Positions 1-60,166 of a stretch of DNA of 64,000 nt are shown here, piece by piece. The notes beneath the pieces were generated by a model that worked only from the letters and a program-made list of their open reading frames with translations, was not told where the DNA came from and ran no database searches. How positions within the stretch are numbered: position 1 is the first letter of the stretch; every line of letters starts with the position of its first letter. Origin of the DNA: Tepidiforma sp. (lineage in GTDB: Bacteria; Chloroflexota; Dehalococcoidia; Tepidiformales; Tepidiformaceae); the NCBI RefSeq assembly GCF_026003995.1, contig NZ_BPIG01000004.1, positions 124,001 through 188,000 of the forward strand, in the 5' to 3' direction. The translations under genes and the position numbers were made by a program.

Positions 1-518
1 ATCGCCAGCGTGGTGCCATCCGCCATAGTGGCGAGGAGGTCGAGCCGCGGCACCGGGCCTGCCAGGAGGTACTCGACCGCCCTGCGAGCATCGGCTTCAT
101 CAGCCCAGAAGCCGTTCGGCCGCCGGTCGAGCGTCACCTTTCGGATGACGGTGCCGGGGGCCACGCCGAGGCGCGTGCAGTCTGTTTCGCCGCGCACCAT
201 GATCGTTTCGCAGGCGACCGACAGGGTGCGAAGGCGGGAGAGCGTCGCTGCCGGGTCGCCGCGGAGGAGCCCATCGAGGGCAGAAGCCGCCGCAGGAGCT
301 TCCTGCTGCAGCCGGGAAAGCGCCCCAACGGGGTCAGCGGGGACTCCGGAGAGAAGGCCGGGCGTAGGCGTCGGGGCTGCAGACACCGGCGGCTGCTCGC
401 TGCTGCCGCTCCTCGCGTTCCAGAGGAGCGCGCCGGCGGCGATGATGACCGCGGCGAGTGCGGCTGCCGTCAGCGCAAGCTGCCGGGGGTGCCTCCACGA
501 GATGTTCGATGAAGCCAT
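1..518 (-). CDS. B0: membrane-anchored protein with PT-rich linker (C-terminus runs off the window)
   Basis: Own translation of minus strand from ATG at 518: MASSNISWRHPRQLALTAAALAAVIIAAGALLWNARSG..SAAPTPTPG..; N-terminal TM anchor, linker, then soluble domain; open to base 1. Confidence 0.75.
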   Translation of the reverse strand, partial: MASSNISWRHPRQLALTAAALAAVIIAAGALLWNARSGSSEQPPVSAAPTPTPGLLSGVPADPVGALSRLQQEAPAAASALDGLLRGDPAATLSRLRTLSVACETIMVRGETDCTRLGVAPGTVIRKVTLDRRPNGFWADEADARRAVEYLLAGPVPRLDLLATMADGTTLA

Positions 519-556
519 GGCGCGGTTCCTTTCGCCGGGCGCCACTGCCCGGCCGC

Positions 557-1306
557 TCAATGTGCTTCGAACGCTGGCGTGTCGGGCGAGCGCCAGCGTA
601 AGGACCAGTTCTGACAGGAGTAGGGAATCCATGACGGGGAATAGCCAACCCCGCCCGACCGGTTGATGGTCGAGCCGACACGATATCCGGGGCACGACGT
701 AGCCGAAGGTCCATGCAGCCCCACTGATTTGCCGCCCATTACCGAACATTCTGAACCGTTCGCCCAGCACGTGTCGTCCGTCTTATCCACGACGGCCACG
801 TACGCTGAGGGCCGCATGGCCATATGAAGGTGGAGCGCGCTCGTCCCACAATACCCCGGATTGGCAACGACGGAAGCAAGCCACTGCCCTGCGGAGCTGA
901 CGGCTGATGTGTACCCGGAGCTCACAGAGGCCGTGGAAACGTGAAGGATGTCAATGTCGTGGTCGTAATCGGTGACCCAGGTCCCTGCGACCAGGCGCTG
1001 CATGCGGGCCCGCACGCGGCAGTCCTCGGCAAGGAAGTACCAGTACCGGACGGGATACGCCTGCGTGACGGGTGCCATCGCCCGGACGTAGACCGGTGTT
1101 GAAAGCGAGAGCGACCCAGAGTAGTCATAGGCTCCGAGGCCCGCGTAGTCGTCGAAATGCAGTCCATAATCAGCAACGGAAGCACCGCCGTTCTGATGGG
1201 CTGGCATTACCCAGACCTGCGTCGCAAGTGCCCCAGCGCTCCGTTCTGCCGTGAACGACGCGAGCGTGACTGTCGCACAAGCAACGATGACAGCCACTCG
1301 CTTCAT
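557..1306 (-). CDS. A0: secreted protein, signal peptide, possible divergent LytM/M23-like domain
   Basis: ORF track 557..1417; best start ATG 1306 (MKRVAVIVACATVTLASF..) with GGAGGT upstream; contains STPVYVRA, ILHVS and LHLH segments. Confidence 0.75.
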   Translation of the reverse strand: MKRVAVIVACATVTLASFTAERSAGALATQVWVMPAHQNGGASVADYGLHFDDYAGLGAYDYSGSLSLSTPVYVRAMAPVTQAYPVRYWYFLAEDCRVRARMQRLVAGTWVTDYDHDIDILHVSTASVSSGYTSAVSSAGQWLASVVANPGYCGTSALHLHMAMRPSAYVAVVDKTDDTCWANGSECSVMGGKSVGLHGPSATSCPGYRVGSTINRSGGVGYSPSWIPYSCQNWSLRWRSPDTPAFEAH

Positions 1307-1334
1307 GGGCGACCTCCGGTGCATAATTTTCGTC

Positions 1335-1362
1335 ATGCTAGCCACAAATTGGGGGGGGTCAA
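1335..1362 (-). promoter_or_regulatory. Candidate promoter for A0 with poly-C tract in spacer
   Basis: Minus strand TTGACC-16 nt-TAGCAT; run of 8 C starts in the -35 hexamer and runs into the spacer. Confidence 0.55.
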
Positions 1363-1450
1363 GGGCTCGGCAACGGTGAGCGAGGGGCGCCGGCAGCGGG
1401 CGCTGGCCCCTTGACAACCCTTAGCCCAAGGCGAACGATACAGGTGATGT

Positions 1451-1575
1451 TCTCGGGGCGGGGTGCAATTCCCCACCGGCGGTGAGAGCCCGCGACCCCC
1501 GAGCCGCTGGCGCGGCGAGGGGCTGACCCGGTGGAATCCCGGGGCCGACGGTAACAGTCCGGATGGGAGAGAACA
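1451..1575 (+). ncRNA. FMN riboswitch (RFN element)
   Basis: ggggcggggtgcaattccccaccggcggt ... gacccggtggaatcccggggccgacggtaacagtccggatgggagaga matches conserved RFN blocks; directly upstream of ribE. Confidence 0.95.
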
Positions 1576-1728
1576 GGGCTGGCGCTGCGCTATGCGCGGC
1601 GCCGGTCGGCGGTCGCCGTCGTATGCCCGTCTGCCCCGGGGAGATCGCGACTACGGACCCGGGGGCCAGGCATCGATGGCAGCAGCGCAAGGTGACATCA
1701 GCCATCCGGCGGGCGAGGGGCACGGCTG

Positions 1729-2325
1729 ATGTTCACGGGAATCATCGAAGAGGTTGGCGAGGTGGTGGAGGCGGGCGAGGGGACGCTGCGCATCCGCGCA
1801 CCGCTCATCCTGCAGGACACGAAGCTCGGCGACTCGATTGCCATCAACGGGGTGGACCTGACGGTGGCGGAGATCGCGGGCGACACGTTCTTCGCGAACC
1901 TGATGCCGGAGACGTACCGGCGGAGCAACCTCGGCGAGCTGCGGCCGGGCGACCGGGTGAACCTGGAGCGCTCGTGCCGGCCGACCGACCGGCTGAGCGG
2001 CCACATCGTGCGCGGGGTCGTTGAAGGCACGGGGACGATCGATTCGTTCACGCCGGAGGGCGACGCCGTCATCGTGAGGGTGCGGGCCCCGCGCGAGCTG
2101 CTCAGGTACATGGTGGTGAAGGGGCCGGTCTGCATCGACGGCATCAGCCTGACCATCATCGCAAAGGACTCGGAGAGCTTCTCTGTCTCGCTGGTGCAGT
2201 ACACGCAGGAGCACACGAACCTCGTCGGCCGGAAGCCGGGCGACCGGGTGAACCTGGAGACGGACATCATGGCGCGCTACATCGATGCCCTGCTGGAAGC
2301 GCGCGCGCAGGAGGCAGACCGATGA
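1729..2325 (+). CDS. ribE: Riboflavin synthase alpha subunit
   Basis: [12 protein letters not shown].. duplicated lumazine-binding repeats. Confidence 0.97.
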
Positions 2326-52851: not shown

Positions 52852-53783
52852 ATGAGCGAGGAGCTGCGGGCGGACCGGTTCCGGGTGGAGCGGGCCTCGC
52901 CGCGGGGGTTCGAGCAGGCGTTCGTGCGGGAGGGGGTCGGGCGGCGTGCCGCTTCTGCTGGTCCACGGCTGGCCGGAGACGAAGCGGATCTGGTGGCGAA
53001 ACATCGCGCCGCTGGCGGCGGCCGGCTTCGAGGTGATCGCGCCGGACCTGCGCGGGTTCGGCGATTCGGACGTGGGGCCGGACGGCTTCCACGATGTGCC
53101 CTCGCACGCGCGGGACCTGTACGCGCTGGTGCGCGAACATCTCGGGCACGAGCGGGTGGTGGCGGTGGGCGGCGACCTCGGCGGGCCGGTCATCCAGGAC
53201 CTTTCGCTCCGGTTCCCGGGGTTCGTCGAGCGGATGGTGCTGTTCAATTCGCCGCTGCCGTACGACCGCGAGCGGATGGCGGGGCTGCGGACGCGGCCGC
53301 CGCGGGAGGCCTCGGACTACTTCGTGCGGCAGGGGACGGACGCGGACGGGCTGGCCGCGGAGCTGGCGACGCCGGAGATGCGGCGGCGGTACATCGCGAC
53401 GTTCTACACGTCGCGGTTCTGGGCACACCCGGGGGCGTTCACGCCGGAGGCGGTGGAGTTCATGACGGAGCCGTTCGCAGACGGGGCCAAGCTGCGGGCG
53501 AGCTTCGGGGCGTACGAGTCGGCCTTCAGCGAGGAGTGCGCGGAGCGAGCCGCCGGCGATGGCGTGCCCGAACCCCACGCCGACGCTGGTCCTGTTCGGG
53601 CCGAGCGACCACGTCATCTACCCGGACTTCGACCGGATGGCGGCGGCGGTGTTCCCGAACCACGCCGGGCCGTTCCTGCTGCGGGACTGCGGGCACTTCG
53701 TACAGTGGGAAGCGGCGCACGCACTCAACTCGGCGGTGACGGCGTGGTGCGGCGACCTGCTGGCGGGACGGCGGCGTCAGTAG
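52852..53783 (+). CDS. Epoxide-hydrolase-like alpha/beta hydrolase, two frameshifts as presented
   Basis: PLLLVHGWPETKRIWWRNIAPLAAAGFEVIAPDLRGFGDSD..; C-terminal TPTLVLFGPSDHVIYPDFDRM..DCGHFVQWEAAHALN in shifted frame. Confidence 0.88.
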
Positions 53784-54430
53784 TTCCAGGTCCAGGATTG
53801 CTGGTACTGCCAGTTTGCCGTGTTCTCGATGTCGTAGGTGCCGAGGCTCCCGAAGTTCGTCCAGTTGGCGGACCAGAACGATGGTTCCGCCCCTTGATGC
53901 AGGTGCTGGCCGGCCCAGGGACAGGACGCGCTCTTCTCTTGCGCGACGGAGAAGCCGACTTCCGCCTTGCTGAAGGACCAGGACGGGCTCCCGCTGGCGT
54001 ACACCCACCACTCCGGCGTCCACGTCCGGCTGTGGACGTAATGGATATCGCCCTTCGGAAAGTCGAAGGCGTCGAAGACGCGAAGCGTGACGCGAGAGCA
54101 GTGCCCCGTGTCGTTCTGCAGGATCTGCGCCCTGGCGATGGTGCCGGTTCCGCCGGAGCGGTAGCCGTACGAGCGCCAGAAGATGGGACGGTTGGGCGCC
54201 CACGACTGGTGTCCGTTCGCCCAGTCGAGTGCGTTGCCAGGCGTCGGCGGGTTCAAACACGTTTCGTGCCAGCTGCAGTTGAGGGCGGCGAACCGGGCCT
54301 CCGGACCGGGGTGAACCCGGAGTGTGAGGTATTCGGTGACGGCCGCGGCCTGGCGGGGGCCAGGCAGTGAGGTGGCGAATCCTGCGATGAACCCGGCGGT
54401 GAAGGTGAGCAGGGCGAGTAAGCGGGTCAC
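53777..54430 (-). CDS. A1: secreted protein of the A family
   Basis: VTRLLALLTFTAGFIAGFATSLPG..YLTLRVHPGPEARFAALNCSWHETCLNPPTPGNALDWANGH..GQHLHQ..NWQYQQSWTWNY; GTGA overlap with B1. Confidence 0.8.
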   Translation of the reverse strand: MTRLLALLTFTAGFIAGFATSLPGPRQAAAVTEYLTLRVHPGPEARFAALNCSWHETCLNPPTPGNALDWANGHQSWAPNRPIFWRSYGYRSGGTGTIARAQILQNDTGHCSRVTLRVFDAFDFPKGDIHYVHSRTWTPEWWVYASGSPSWSFSKAEVGFSVAQEKSASCPWAGQHLHQGAEPSFWSANWTNFGSLGTYDIENTANWQYQQSWTWNY

Positions 54431-55260
54431 GGCCGGGTCTCCCCGAGGATCGCCTCGGCGAACTGGAGCAAGAGCGGCAGCGGCATGTTGCCCTGCATCC
54501 ACGTGAGCACGCCATCGCGATAGGTGACCAGCGCGGTGATGCCGACGCCGAGGTCCGGCAGGATGGGGACCGCTACCGCCGCAGGGGCACCCGCCACCTC
54601 CATCTCGCGCACCCGGGGCGCGGGCAGGTGCAGCGACACCGCGGGCGGCTCCCGGTCGACCACCACCCGGTTGACCGACAACGCTCCACCAAACGGGGCC
54701 AACCCGGGGATGACCGGCAGGGAGTACGACGCACTCGCGCCGACCGGGCCGCGGCCGCTGCAGGAGAGCACGTAGATGGCGTGGGGAGGCAACCCGCCCG
54801 GGATCGGATGGACCAGCGGGAGCTCGACCCGGCTCCCGCGCGTGACGGAGAGCTCGGAGTACCAGGCGGGGTCGTCGCACCACGCCGTCGGGTCGTAGAA
54901 GTCCCCTGCACCGGGGCCGATGTGGACCCCGGCGATCACTCCATCGAACCGCGGCAGCCGGAGGTCCGCCTCGTGGTAGGGATCCGCCCAAAATGGCTTG
55001 CTCGTGTCCGGGTCGAGCGAGAGCCCGGTATGCGGGTCAACGGCAGCCGTTGGGGTCGCGGTTGGGGCGGCGCCCGCCGGTGTTGCGGTTGGGGCGGTGC
55101 CCGCCGGGGTTGCGGTTGGGGCCGCAGGCGTCCCCGCAGCGGCCGCGGGCGGTGAGCCCTCCTCCCCGCCAATTTGGCGGCCAAGCGCGAATCCCGCCGC
55201 TCCCAGCACGAGGGCGACGAGCGCCGCTCCGATGACGACGCGTGCACGCGACATCGTCAT
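54427..55260 (-). CDS. B1: membrane-anchored protein of the B family
   Basis: MTMSRARVVIGAALVALVLGAAGFALGRQIGGEEGSPPAAAAGTP..; TM anchor, PT/PA linker, soluble domain. Confidence 0.8.
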   Translation of the reverse strand: MTMSRARVVIGAALVALVLGAAGFALGRQIGGEEGSPPAAAAGTPAAPTATPAGTAPTATPAGAAPTATPTAAVDPHTGLSLDPDTSKPFWADPYHEADLRLPRFDGVIAGVHIGPGAGDFYDPTAWCDDPAWYSELSVTRGSRVELPLVHPIPGGLPPHAIYVLSCSGRGPVGASASYSLPVIPGLAPFGGALSVNRVVVDREPPAVSLHLPAPRVREMEVAGAPAAVAVPILPDLGVGITALVTYRDGVLTWMQGNMPLPLLLQFAEAILGETRP

Positions 55261-55288
55261 GCCACTTCTCCTCTTCAAGCTATAGCGA

Positions 55289-55315
55289 AGCCTAGCACGC
55301 GGGGGGGGGCGTCAA
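55289..55315 (-). promoter_or_regulatory. Candidate promoter of B1-A1 with C9 spacer
   Basis: TTGACG-CCCCCCCCCGCGTGC(15)-TAGGCT. Confidence 0.55.
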
Positions 55316-55368
55316 CACCGGCGGGCCGCCAGCGCGCTTCGCGAAGGCGCCGCACCCGCTGGGGGGCT

Positions 55369-55460
55369 GCGGGCACTTCGTGCAGCGGGAGGCGGTGCAC
55401 GCGCTCAACTCGGCGGCGACGGCGTGGTGCGGCGACCTGCTGGCAGGACGGCGGGGTTAG
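55369..55460 (+). pseudogene. Duplicated 3' fragment of the alpha/beta hydrolase gene
   Basis: ctgcgggcacttcgtgcagcgggaggcggtgcacgcgctcaactcggcggcgacggcgtggtgcggcgacctgctggcaggacgg matches the hydrolase 3' end (about 53693-53780) with few differences. Confidence 0.85.
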
Positions 55461-56140
55461 TAGCTCCAGGTCCACGATTGCTGGTACTGCCAGTTTTCTG
55501 GGGATGAGATGGCGTAACTCACACCGGCGCTAGTGAAACTTGCCCAGTTCACCGCCCACCAGCCGGTCACGTCCCTGTCCTGGTGGAGGTGTTGCCCGGT
55601 CCAGTACCCGCCAGCGACGCACGAGGGAAACTCGGTCGACCAGCTAAACCCGATCTGTTCAATCGACCATTGCCAGGAAGACGACCCGTTGATCGAGAAC
55701 TGCCAGCCGGGCGTCCACGTTCGAGAATGGACGTAGCTGATGTAGCCTTTCGAGAATCCGAATACGTCGACAACCGCAACGCGAAGCGCGGCACAAACCC
55801 CGTCGGCCTGGATGATTTGTCCGGTGGCGATGGCTCCAAACTGATCAGGGTTTGACCTGAACCCGCGTGACCGCCAAAGGATCGGGCGGTCGGGCGCCCA
55901 GCTGTCGTGTCCGTTGGCCCAGTCGAGCGCCGAGCCCGCGGATGGGGGGTTCGTGCAGGCGGCATGCCACGAGCAGGTCAACGCAGCGAACGACTGCTCT
56001 GGGCCCGGATGGATTCGCAGGGTGACTGATTCCGATGCGGCTGCAGCCGGGGCCGGCGGCCGGTCCAGGACGAGCGGGAGATGGCCGAGCCAGAACCCGC
56101 CAGCGAGGGCGACCGCGTACACGAGCACCCGCGGGTTCAT
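55457..56140 (-). CDS. A2: secreted protein of the A family
   Basis: MNPRVLVYAVALAGGFWLGHLPL..VTLRIHPGPEQSFAALTCSWHAACTNPPSAGSALDWANGHDSWAPDRPILWRSRGFRS..YVHSRTWTPG..TGQHLHQ..NWQYQQSWTWSY. Confidence 0.8.
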   Translation of the reverse strand: MNPRVLVYAVALAGGFWLGHLPLVLDRPPAPAAAASESVTLRIHPGPEQSFAALTCSWHAACTNPPSAGSALDWANGHDSWAPDRPILWRSRGFRSNPDQFGAIATGQIIQADGVCAALRVAVVDVFGFSKGYISYVHSRTWTPGWQFSINGSSSWQWSIEQIGFSWSTEFPSCVAGGYWTGQHLHQDRDVTGWWAVNWASFTSAGVSYAISSPENWQYQQSWTWSY

Positions 56141-56955
56141 TTCAGGAGCTCCTCGGCGGCGGCGAGGAGGGCCTCCTCAGTCAAACCCTGGCTGGTGATG
56201 ACCGTCACGACACCATCCGGGACGGCGACCACGGCACCGGGGCCGAATCCGATACGGGGAAGCGGCGGCACCGCCAGAACTGCGGGGCCGCCGCCAACCC
56301 GGGCTTCGCGGACGCGGGGAGCGCGGAGCTGGACGTGGGCGACGGGCTTCGACGGGTCGCCTGCAAGGTAGCGAAAGACCCAGAGGTCCCCACCGCGCGG
56401 AGCGCCACCGGGGTGGGGCAGCAAGGAGAAGGTGGCCTCGGCCGCGACCGCTCGCCCGTCAGCGCACGCCACGACGCGAACCTCGCCCGGCTGCGCGACG
56501 ACGCCCGGAATCCCGGGCGTGCGGATAGCGACCGGCGAATCCGCGATATCAGCCAGCGAGCGCGAACCGGGCGGGAGATACGATGCGCACGGCGCGATGC
56601 GGGAGCTGGCGCCATCGACTCCGTCGGCCGGGGACGGCTCGATACGGACCCCGGCGAGCGTTCCTTCGAAGAGCGGCAGCCGGGACTCCGCTTCGGAGTA
56701 CGGCACGTACCACAGCGGTTTGGTCGTGTCCGGCTCGAGCGGCAGGCCGGTGTACGGGTCGACACCGCCGGCCGGGGTCGCGGTTGGGGCGGCGGCTGCC
56801 GGGGTCGCGGCTGGGGCGGAAGGCGTCCCCGCTGCGGCAGCGGGCGGCGAGCCCTCCTCCCCGCCGACCTGGCGGCCAAGCGCGAAGCCCGCCGCTCCGA
56901 GCACGAGGGCGACGAGCGCCGCTCCCATGACGACGCGTGCACGCGACATCGTCAT
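56137..56955 (-). CDS. B2: membrane-anchored protein of the B family
   Basis: MTMSRARVVMGAALVALVLGAAGFALGRQVGGEEGSPPAAAAGTPSAPAATPA.. Confidence 0.8.
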   Translation of the reverse strand: MTMSRARVVMGAALVALVLGAAGFALGRQVGGEEGSPPAAAAGTPSAPAATPAAAAPTATPAGGVDPYTGLPLEPDTTKPLWYVPYSEAESRLPLFEGTLAGVRIEPSPADGVDGASSRIAPCASYLPPGSRSLADIADSPVAIRTPGIPGVVAQPGEVRVVACADGRAVAAEATFSLLPHPGGAPRGGDLWVFRYLAGDPSKPVAHVQLRAPRVREARVGGGPAVLAVPPLPRIGFGPGAVVAVPDGVVTVITSQGLTEEALLAAAEELLK

Positions 56956-56983: not shown

Positions 56984-57011
56984 AGCGTAGCAGGCGGGGG
57001 GGGGGCGTCAA
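56984..57011 (-). promoter_or_regulatory. Candidate promoter of B2-A2 with C10 spacer
   Basis: TTGACG-CCCCCCCCCCGCCTGC(16)-TACGCT. Confidence 0.55.
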
Positions 57012-57025
57012 CACCGGAGCGGCGG

Positions 57026-60000
57026 TCAGCCGGCGGGGTCAGCAGCGCGCTTCTCGCGGAGCTCCCGCTCGGATGCGGTCTCCTCGCGCGGCCGAGCACG
57101 CCGTTTCGGCGCAGCCGAGGGCGCGGCTTCGGAAGCCGCCTCCCGTGAGGCGCGGGCGTCGATGCGGGCGGCGGCGGCAGCGGCCCGGCGGGCGACAGCG
57201 TCGGCGCCGGCATGGCTGCCGGCCAGCGGCTCTGCTGCGTGGGCACGGCCGTCGAGGGCGTGCGCCGGGCCGAGTGTGCCGGCGGCTTCGAGGATCGGCC
57301 GGAGGTAGCGCCCGGTGAAGCTGGTTTCGGCGCCGGCGACCTCTTCGGGGGTGCCGACGGCCACCACCTGGCCGCCGCGGTCGCCGCCGAGGGGGCCGAG
57401 GTCGATGATGTGGTCGGCGGATTTGATGACGTCGAGGTGGTGCTCGATGACGACGACGGTGTTGCCGCTGTCGACGAGGCGGTGGAGGACATCGAGCAGG
57501 TGGGCGACGTCCTGGAAGGAGAGGCCGGTGGTGGGTTCGTCGAGGACGTAGAGGGTGCGGCCGGTAGAGCGGCGGGAGAGCTCGGAGGCGAGCTTGATCC
57601 GCTGGGCTTCGCCGCCGGAGAGGGTGGTGGCGGGCTGGCCGATTTTGATGTAGCCGAGGCCGGTGGCTTCGAGGGTGTCGAGGATGCGCTTGATGCGGGG
57701 GAACCGTTCGAAGAACTCGACGGCCTCGGAGACGGTCATGTCGAGGACCTCGGCGATGTTCTTGCCGCGGAAGGTGATTTCGAGGGCTTCGCGGTTGTAG
57801 CGTTTGCCGTCGCAGGCCTCGCAGGGGACGGTGACATCGGGGAGGAACTGCATTTCGACGATTTTGTAGCCGTCTCCGGCGCACTCTTCGCAGCGGCCGC
57901 CTTTGACGTTGAAGGAGAAGCGGCCGGCCTTGTAGCCGCGGGCGCGCGCTTCGGGGACGGAGGCGAAGAGCTCGCGGATGAGGGTGAAGGCGCCGGTGTA
58001 GGTGGCGGGGTTGGAGCGGGGAGTGCGGCCGATGGGGGACTGGTCGATATCGACGACCTTGTCGATGTGCTCGAGGCCCTCGATGGTGTCGTGGGCGCCG
58101 GGGCGCTGGCGTGCTCCATGGAGGACCTGGAGGGCGCGGGGCACGAGGATGTCGGTGATGAGAGAGGATTTGCCGGAGCCGGAGACGCCGGTGACGGCGA
58201 CGAGCTTGCCGAGGGGGATGTCGACGGTGATGTTGCGGAGGTTGTTTTCGCGGGCGCCGACGATGCGAATCGTTTTGCCATTGCCAGGGCGGCGCTGCGG
58301 CGGGACGGGGATTTGGCGGCGGCCGGAGAGGTAGGCGCCGGTGATGCTTTCGGGGTGCTCGAGGATGGCCGGGAGGGGGCCTTCGGCGACGATGCGGCCG
58401 CCGTGGATGCCGGCACCGGGGCCCATGTCGATGATCCAGTCGGCGGCACGCATCATCGCTTCGTCGTGTTCGACGACGAGGACGGTGTTGCCGAGGTCGC
58501 GGAGCCGTTCGAGGGTGCGGATGAGGCGGTCGCCGTCGACGGGGTGGAGGCCGATGGAGGGTTCGTCGCAGATATAGAGCACGCCCATGAGGGCGGACCC
58601 GATCTGGGTGGCGAGGCGGATGCGCTGGGATTCGCCGCCGGAAAGGGTGCCGGAGACGCGGTCGAGGGTGAGGTAATCGAGGCCGACGTCGACGAGGAAC
58701 TCGAGGCGGGAGCGGATCTCCTTGAGGACCTGGACCGCGATCGTTCGCTCGCGGGGGGAGAGCGGGGTTTCGGGGCCGGCGAGGCGGTCGAACCAGGCGC
58801 GCGCCTCGGCGATGCTCATCGCGCTGACGTCGGCGATGGGGCGGCCGTCGATGAGCACAGCCAGCGCCTCGGGGCGGAGCCGGCGGCCGCGGCACTCGGG
58901 GCAGGGAATGGCTGCCATGTACTTCTCGATGTCCTGCCGGACGTAGTCGGAGTCGGTTTCCTTGTAGCGGCGCTGGAGGTTGGGGATGACGCCTTCGTAG
59001 CGGGTGTCGTAGACCTGCGTGCGGCCGTACTGGTTGGTGAAGCGGAGGCGGAGGAGGCGGTCGCCGGTGCCGTAGAGGAGGGCGTGGAGCTGGGATTCGG
59101 TGAGCTCGCTGATGGGGGTGTGGATGGTGAAGCCCTGGTCTTCGGCGACGGCTTCGAGCTGGCGGAGGTACCAGCCGGCGATGCTGGGGGATTTCGACCA
59201 CGGCTCGACGGCGCCCTCGGCGATGGACTTCGTGCGGTCGGGGATGACGAGCGCGGGGTCGATCTGCATTTCGACGCCGAGGCCGGTGCAGCGGGGGCAG
59301 GCGCCGTGGGGACTGTTGAAGGAGAAGGTGCGGGGCTCGATTTCGCCGATGGAGGTGCCGTCGTAGGGGCAGGCGAAGTGCTCGGAGAAGATGCGCTCGG
59401 CGGGCGGTTCGGGTGCGCCGGCGGGAGTGCCGCCGGCGGAGGCGACGATCATGACGCCCTGCCCGACCTTGAGCGCCTGTTCGACGGAATCGGCGATGCG
59501 GCTGGCGGCGGCCGGGTCGCTGCCGGGCTCGGGGACGACGAGGCGGTCGACGACGACGTCGATGTCGTGGCGCTTCTTCTTATCGAGGGCGGGGACTTCT
59601 TCGATATCGTAGACCTGCCCATCGACGCGGACGCGGACGAAGCCGGCGCGGCGGGCTTCATCGAAGATGCCGGTATGTTCGCCTTTCTTCGCGCGGGCGA
59701 CCGGGGCGAGGAGGAGGAGGCGGGCGCCGGGCGGGTAGGCGAGGGTGGCATCGACGATCTGCTGGACGGTCTGGCGCTCGATGGGGCGGCCGCAGGCGGG
59801 GCAGTGGGGCCGGCCGGCGCGGGCCCAGAGGAGACGCATGTAGTCGTAGATTTCGGTGACCGTGCCGACGGTGGAGCGGGGGTTGTTGGAGGTGGATTTC
59901 TGGTCGATGGAGATGGCGGGCGAGAGGCCGTCGATGTGGTCGACATCGGGCTTCTCCATGAGGCCGAGGAACTGGCGGGCGTAGGCGGAGAGGGATTCGA

Positions 60001-60166
60001 CGTAGCGGCGCTGGCCTTCGGCGTAGATGGTGTCGAAGGCGAGGGAGGACTTGCCGGAGCCGGAGAGGCCGGTGATGACGACGAGCTTGTCGCGGGGGAT
60101 GCGGACGTCGATGTTCTTGAGGTTATGTTCGCGAGCGCCGCGGACGACGATGTGGTCGAGTGGCAC
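57026..60166 (-). CDS. uvrA: Excinuclease ABC subunit A
   Basis: [68 protein letters not shown]. Confidence 0.98.

Follow-up and report, generated by a model that had tools for sequence, protein, structure and literature searches.

How can two neighbouring operons keep closely similar ends when the genes enclosed by those ends differ greatly? The question is raised by a 64,000-nucleotide stretch of Tepidiforma DNA (hereafter the window; G000:C4:124001-188000, where G000 is the Tepidiforma genome that carries it), in which two B-A operons lie in tandem on the minus strand, between a convergent alpha/beta hydrolase gene and uvrA. B is translated first in each unit, and the start codon of A lies inside the B stop codon (GTGA or ATGA). 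Comparison of the ends and cores of the two units, within the window and across the genus, points strongly to allele replacement by recombination in the conserved ends. The features of this slot, in window coordinates, are as follows.

52852..53783, plus strand: hyd, alpha/beta hydrolase, left flank (Pfam Abhydrolase_1, E 3e-24)
53777..54430, minus strand: A1, predicted exported HxH protein with a type-1 core; the 36-nt tail common to A2 is at 53780-53815
54427..55260, minus strand: B1, predicted membrane-anchored partner of A1 with a type-1 core; head of ~47 codons common to B2
55289..55315, minus strand: B1 promoter, as inferred from sequence (TTGACG 55315-55310, poly-C(9) 55309-55301, TAGGCT 55294-55289, spacer 15)
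55341..55459, plus strand: dHyd, non-functional copy of the hydrolase 3' end at the edge of the duplicated unit, 88% identical to 53669-53777
55457..56140, minus strand: A2, predicted exported HxH protein with a type-2 core; invariant H59, H138 and H184, near-invariant D73 and H186
56137..56955, minus strand: B2, predicted membrane-anchored partner of A2 with a type-2 core
56984..57011, minus strand: B2 promoter, as inferred from sequence (TTGACG 57011-57006, poly-C(10) 57005-56996, TACGCT 56989-56984, spacer 16)
57026..60166, minus strand: uvrA, right flank of the slot

When unit 1 was aligned with unit 2, the ribosome-binding site (RBS) and B head were identical at 55-58 of 60 positions, the cores at ~20-45 of 60 throughout, the last 36 nt of A at 34 of 36, and the flank past A at 55 of 60. 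The ends are ~85-93% identical (87.9% for the B promoter and head, 88.4% for the hydrolase end and A tail) versus ~57% DNA identity for both the A and the B cores. The original prediction of tandem B-A cassettes with diverged interiors is thus confirmed, on the minus strand and with divergence that is not uniform along the unit, as is the abrupt change it placed ~36 bp into the A 3' end, beyond which core identity is low; its description of the ends as near-identical captures their likeness and is slightly generous. Two features lie beyond that prediction: a poly-C tract in each promoter, a kind of feature that ranks among the rarest of this genome, and the extension of the repeat unit past A into a remnant of the hydrolase 3' end ~120 bp long (55341-55459). 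The position of dHyd at the unit edge implies that the tandem duplication included the hydrolase 3' end, and the 7-bp tail-to-tail overlap of the hydrolase and A1 3' ends implies that any duplication of A took along the hydrolase end, which contributes homology. The units arose by tandem duplication of a segment comprising hydrolase end, A, B and promoter. In G000 the hydrolase gene itself contains two single-base insertions (52939, 53537) that are absent from five relatives, and it is either a pseudogene there or the product of assembly errors.

Silent sites place the cores and the ends at different ages. A1 and A2 differ with a proportion of synonymous differences (pS) of 0.67 and a ratio of nonsynonymous to synonymous substitution (dN/dS) of 0.26. 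Between B1 and B2, synonymous divergence (dS) is 0.06 in codons 1-20, 0.37 in the next 20 and saturated in most core blocks, with an overall dN/dS of 0.50. Because core silent sites are saturated whereas dHyd, which has no function, retains 88% identity to the hydrolase end from which it was copied, the cores are far older than the ends as they now stand, and rapid change of the proteins is excluded as the cause; the saturation, together with dN/dS of 0.26-0.5, marks them as old alternative types rather than products of rapid positive selection. Orthologous cores differ by 0-8% between species and evolve under constraint. A tandem duplication whose interiors then diverged under rapid positive selection would account for a clear duplication with dHyd retained and for strongly different interiors, and dN/dS is close to 1 or exceeds it in a few 20-codon blocks with very few sites. 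This explanation requires core dS as low as that of the ends; this was not seen, and we consider the explanation highly improbable. Diversification through selection, which the original prediction had offered as one of two routes, was rejected on these grounds.

Exchange of cores among Tepidiforma species

The genus comparison took in six Tepidiforma genomes (G000 and G022-G026), a small sample that counts against the reading developed here. In a tree built from 27.8 kb common to all six, ((G000,G023),G025) stands opposite (G024,(G026,G022)), and G023 is the nearest relative of G000 in 18 of 18 blocks. The original prediction had proposed searching related genomes for alternative cores behind the same ends, and such cores were found. 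The slot of G024 contains the hydrolase, A1-B1, an extra B1 (B1b) whose A is deleted, dHyd, A2-B2 and uvrA. G023, without dHyd, carries A1-B1 followed by a different pair, A3-B3 (type 3), and a GGCGTCA microhomology marks the junction of this pair with the B1 promoter. A decayed B3 (type 3) is present in G025, where only the tail of A remains, and G022 and G026 have a lone B (type 4, B4). The core types contradict the species tree, type 2 occurring in G000 and the distant G024, and type 3 in G023 and G025.

Ends and cores have different histories, because in G024 the ends of unit 2 match unit 1 at 32 of 40 informative sites whereas its core matches the window's unit 2 at 473 of 500 (ends versus core, Fisher p 6e-28). 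This bears directly on the alternative that the units are two ancient paralogues whose ends are alike through protein and promoter constraint alone, with no recombination. The C-terminal NWQ..SWTW motif is conserved family-wide, so part of the A tail similarity is selected; however, dHyd is alike though non-coding, the silent sites of the B head are alike too, and the G024 unit-2 ends do not follow the orthologous unit 2. Constraint alone requires one tree for ends and cores, the opposite of what was found, and we give it very little credence. Gene conversion or homologous exchange keeps the ends alike, and the ends serve as the substrate of recombination.

A 762-bp exact run (53685-54446) between G000 and G023 covers the hydrolase end and A1, making A1 100% identical in the two genomes against a window mean identity of 93.8%; the next longest exact run in the window, the block around gene X (below) aside, is 335 bp and lies next to it, in B1. 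The match over A1 is interpreted as a recent exchange. Exact-match runs with G024 inside uvrA (57812-58321, 58394-58801) suggest exchange reaching into that gene. Taken together, the different end and core histories, the alternative cores in one slot, the conflict of core types with the species tree and the G023 exact run make allele replacement through the conserved ends, the second route of the original prediction, very probably correct.

Poly-C tracts in the promoters

The window has 6 matches to an eight-base C run where 21 would be expected, a strong depletion, and the whole genome (2.84 Mb) contains 14 distinct C/G tracts of at least 8 and four of at least 9. Two of these four are those of B1 (C9) and B2 (C10); the third (G11) belongs to a promoter-like site of a homologue of gene X, and the fourth (C10) to a sortase-like gene. 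Gene X itself lies elsewhere in the window.

557..1306, minus strand: gene X, further predicted exported HxH protein; promoter built like those of B1 and B2, poly-C 1351-1358

The B1 and B2 promoters read TTGACG-C9/C10-GC[GC]TGC-TA[GC]GCT, the otherwise unrelated B3 promoter of G023 reads TTGACA-C9-GGTTTTGC-TACCGT with a spacer of 17, and the gene X promoter reads TTGACC-C-run-AATTTGTGGC-TAGCAT. A homopolymer tract is therefore positioned between the putative -35 and -10 elements of B1, B2, B3 and X. Across 320 kb of relatives, a C/G run of at least 6 begins within 4 nt after TTGAC at 8 of 341 sites, and seven of these sites belong to B or X promoters, which represent three promoter types and are not independent. 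Recorded tract length runs from 7 to 10 C among B copies (9 at W1 (B1), 10 at W2 (B2), 8/7/8 in G024) and is 8/8/8/9/7 C for gene X in G000/G026/G024/G022/G023, with sequencing error possible in both sets; between G000 and G022 the X tract is the sole difference across the core of a 2.2-kb block.

We lean towards the B and X tracts mediating promoter phase variation of the porA/opc kind, with random on/off switching. This proposal is new here and goes beyond the original prediction; no report of phase variation in Chloroflexota was found in the literature searched, which does not prove its absence. Several points weigh against it. A strict sigma-70 consensus scan found no promoter here, the B1 and B2 spacers of 15 and 16 are short of the 17-nt optimum for -35/-10 spacing, and differences in homopolymer length are the commonest sequencing error, with the G000 assembly carrying probable indels. 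The tracts might be incidental or assembly noise with no switching role, their length differences between copies reflecting sequencing error in an assembly that the two hydrolase indels suggest to be imperfect; some long tracts elsewhere also lack such a promoter context. Yet long runs are depleted, three unrelated promoters (B1/B2, B3 and X) share the arrangement TTGAC, C run, TAnnnT, and the chance of TAnnnT in five spacings is 0.4%. We regard an incidental origin as a serious but less probable explanation than switching.

Gene X, together with an anchored partner gene Y and a flavin mononucleotide (FMN) riboswitch, occupies the 2.2-kb block (window 1-1877, continuing to G000:C4:123654). Five Tepidiforma species share this block at ~100% identity, against 87-95% between them elsewhere; G025 is without most of the block and has flanking parts only. 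The pattern looks like a recent genus-wide sweep by recombination. Gene X was considered as a close relative of A, a candidate dropped since no BLAST similarity was found. Its homologue at L195 (G000:C4:314805-314815), 42% identical, carries the longest C/G run of G000, a stretch of 11 G that separates TTGACA from a possible -10 box. At L181 (G000:C2:680633-680642) a C10 tract interrupts a sortase-like exported open reading frame whose downstream part is in another frame, which may represent a phase-OFF state or an assembly error, and at L179 (G022:C1:1009146-1009159) a 14-base C run lies near the 3' end of a long exported-looking frame, where coding phase variation is possible.

Predicted properties of the A and B proteins

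The description of A and B as a surface/secreted pair in the original prediction fits the predicted signal peptide of A and the predicted anchor of B, and stands at the level of sequence prediction. Homologues of A are sparse in the class (14 of 294 genomes), and nearly all of those checked adjoin a B, so that A-B adjacency is conserved across the class. Among 20 A sequences H59, H138 and H184 are invariant, D73 and H186 are nearly always kept, and the family also retains cysteines and the C-terminal W motif. The order of H59, D73, H138, H184 and H186 equals that of the zinc and catalytic residues of M23 (PMC9662197), a correspondence at the motif level only. B is composed of a predicted N-terminal anchor, a Pro/Thr/Ala linker and an unassigned domain. 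An M23-like hydrolase is a tentative assignment for A, and the pair is probably active on the cell wall or envelope, or in antagonism. Counting against these functional readings, A matched no Pfam, NCBIfam or PDB profile, Peptidase_M23 included, hhalign gave a probability of 3-5% against M23 with alignment over the HLH motif only, and B has no recognised fold. The AlphaFold models are poor, with a predicted local distance difference test (pLDDT) score of 32 for A, built from only 4 sequences, and 37 for B. A relationship of B to DUF4367 was considered and dropped, that family being rare in the class and absent from G000.

B without A recurs (G024 B1b, B4 of G022 and G026, solo B loci), no A was observed on its own within the genus, and A tends to be lost or frameshifted where B persists. 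At L003 (G000:C3:315165-316598), the third A gene of G000 is frameshifted beside an open B reading frame; G023 has an intact version of this pair. The recurrence of B without A, the tendency of A to be lost or frameshifted and the translational coupling of B and A speak for an effector-immunity pair, with A a secreted wall-degrading toxin and B its membrane immunity protein, a role that would add a function to core exchange and switching. The recombining tandem cores also resemble esaG/tipC and type VI secretion system (T6SS) arrays (PMC9484751, PMC5361080). However, A matched no toxin family, and searches for A or its partner among defence systems (PADLOC), plasmids and phages gave no match. 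Lysostaphin-type bacteriocins use FemABX-like immunity, and B has no FemABX-like match. Some A frameshifts may be assembly errors, and a chaperone, tether or wall-remodelling pair would look identical. We consider an effector-immunity role rather unlikely.

A recombining, probably switching slot and its known counterparts

The account we regard as probable joins a recombining tandem cassette slot, poly-C switching and an envelope or antagonism pair. Between the hydrolase and uvrA, each unit is a translationally coupled operon of B (predicted anchor and outer domain) and A (predicted exported, probably zinc hydrolase-like), and the old core types 1, 2 and 3 have been shuffled between Tepidiforma species through the promoter and B head on one side and the A tail and hydrolase end on the other. 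Poly-C slippage between -35 and -10 would alter promoter spacing and so switch units on and off at random. More speculatively, A may act on peptidoglycan or another envelope polymer and B may tether it, restrain it or confer immunity, switching and core exchange then yielding a varied envelope or antagonism trait. It is conceivable, though we hold it with less confidence, that Tepidiforma has a wider class of contingency loci, comprising the B-A units, gene X and its homologue, which encode exported HxH proteins and their anchored partners and have hypermutable poly-C/G tracts in their promoters and cores swapped between species by recombination.

If true, such loci would amount to an envelope or antagonism system of a free-living thermophilic Chloroflexota in which phase variation and recombination are combined. 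Host-adapted pathogens provide the best-known examples of phase variation and cassette exchange; should both act on a single exported gene pair in a hot-spring member of the Chloroflexota, this would point to competitors, phages or the envelope environment, and not to an immune system, as the source of selection. The uncharacterised A and B families would also gain a testable role.

Known systems resemble parts of this arrangement. Polymorphic toxins combine a constant N-terminal trafficking part, a variable C-terminal toxin and an adjacent immunity gene; A instead has a variable N-terminus and core and a constant C-terminus, though a partner gene adjoins. In rhs elements a conserved core domain carries a C-terminal tip that is displaced and variable (PMC2935791); conserved and variable parts are likewise evolutionarily decoupled through recombination in the B-A units, where, unlike rhs, the unit spans two genes and is conserved at either end. 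Anaplasma msp2/p44 undergoes gene conversion at one expression site from ~100 silent donors (PMC11946796) and shares with the B-A units the conserved flanks, variable middle and gene conversion. Unlike those donors, every B-A unit has a promoter-like sequence, an RBS and open frames, and no set of promoterless partial copies was found in genome searches. A resembles M23 enzymes (LytM/lysostaphin; PMC9662197) in being exported with an ordered H(x)nD, upstream His and HxH, in a monoderm host with peptidoglycan and an S-layer (PMC10284905), and differs in an H-D spacing of 13 versus 3, extra cysteines, a conserved aromatic C-terminus and the lack of profile or fold support.

Promoter phase variation of porA, fetA and opc in Neisseria (PMC2791445) and of tp0126/tprL in Treponema (PMC7864442) likewise involves a homopolymer that overlaps or separates the -35 and -10 elements, again in genes for surface or exported proteins. 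Unlike the hosts of porA/opc and tp0126/tprL, Tepidiforma is a free-living non-pathogen, and its putative switching tract is combined with tandem core exchange. The esaG and tipC immunity genes of type VII secretion systems (T7SS) form tandem paralogues with conserved 5' and 3' blocks, variable interiors and orphan copies, and homologous recombination through the blocks alters their copy number and content (PMC9484751). The B-A units share the conserved end blocks, variable core and mosaic histories, but each is a two-gene operon with its own promoter and no linked secretion system, and its types are exchanged between species of thermophilic Chloroflexota.

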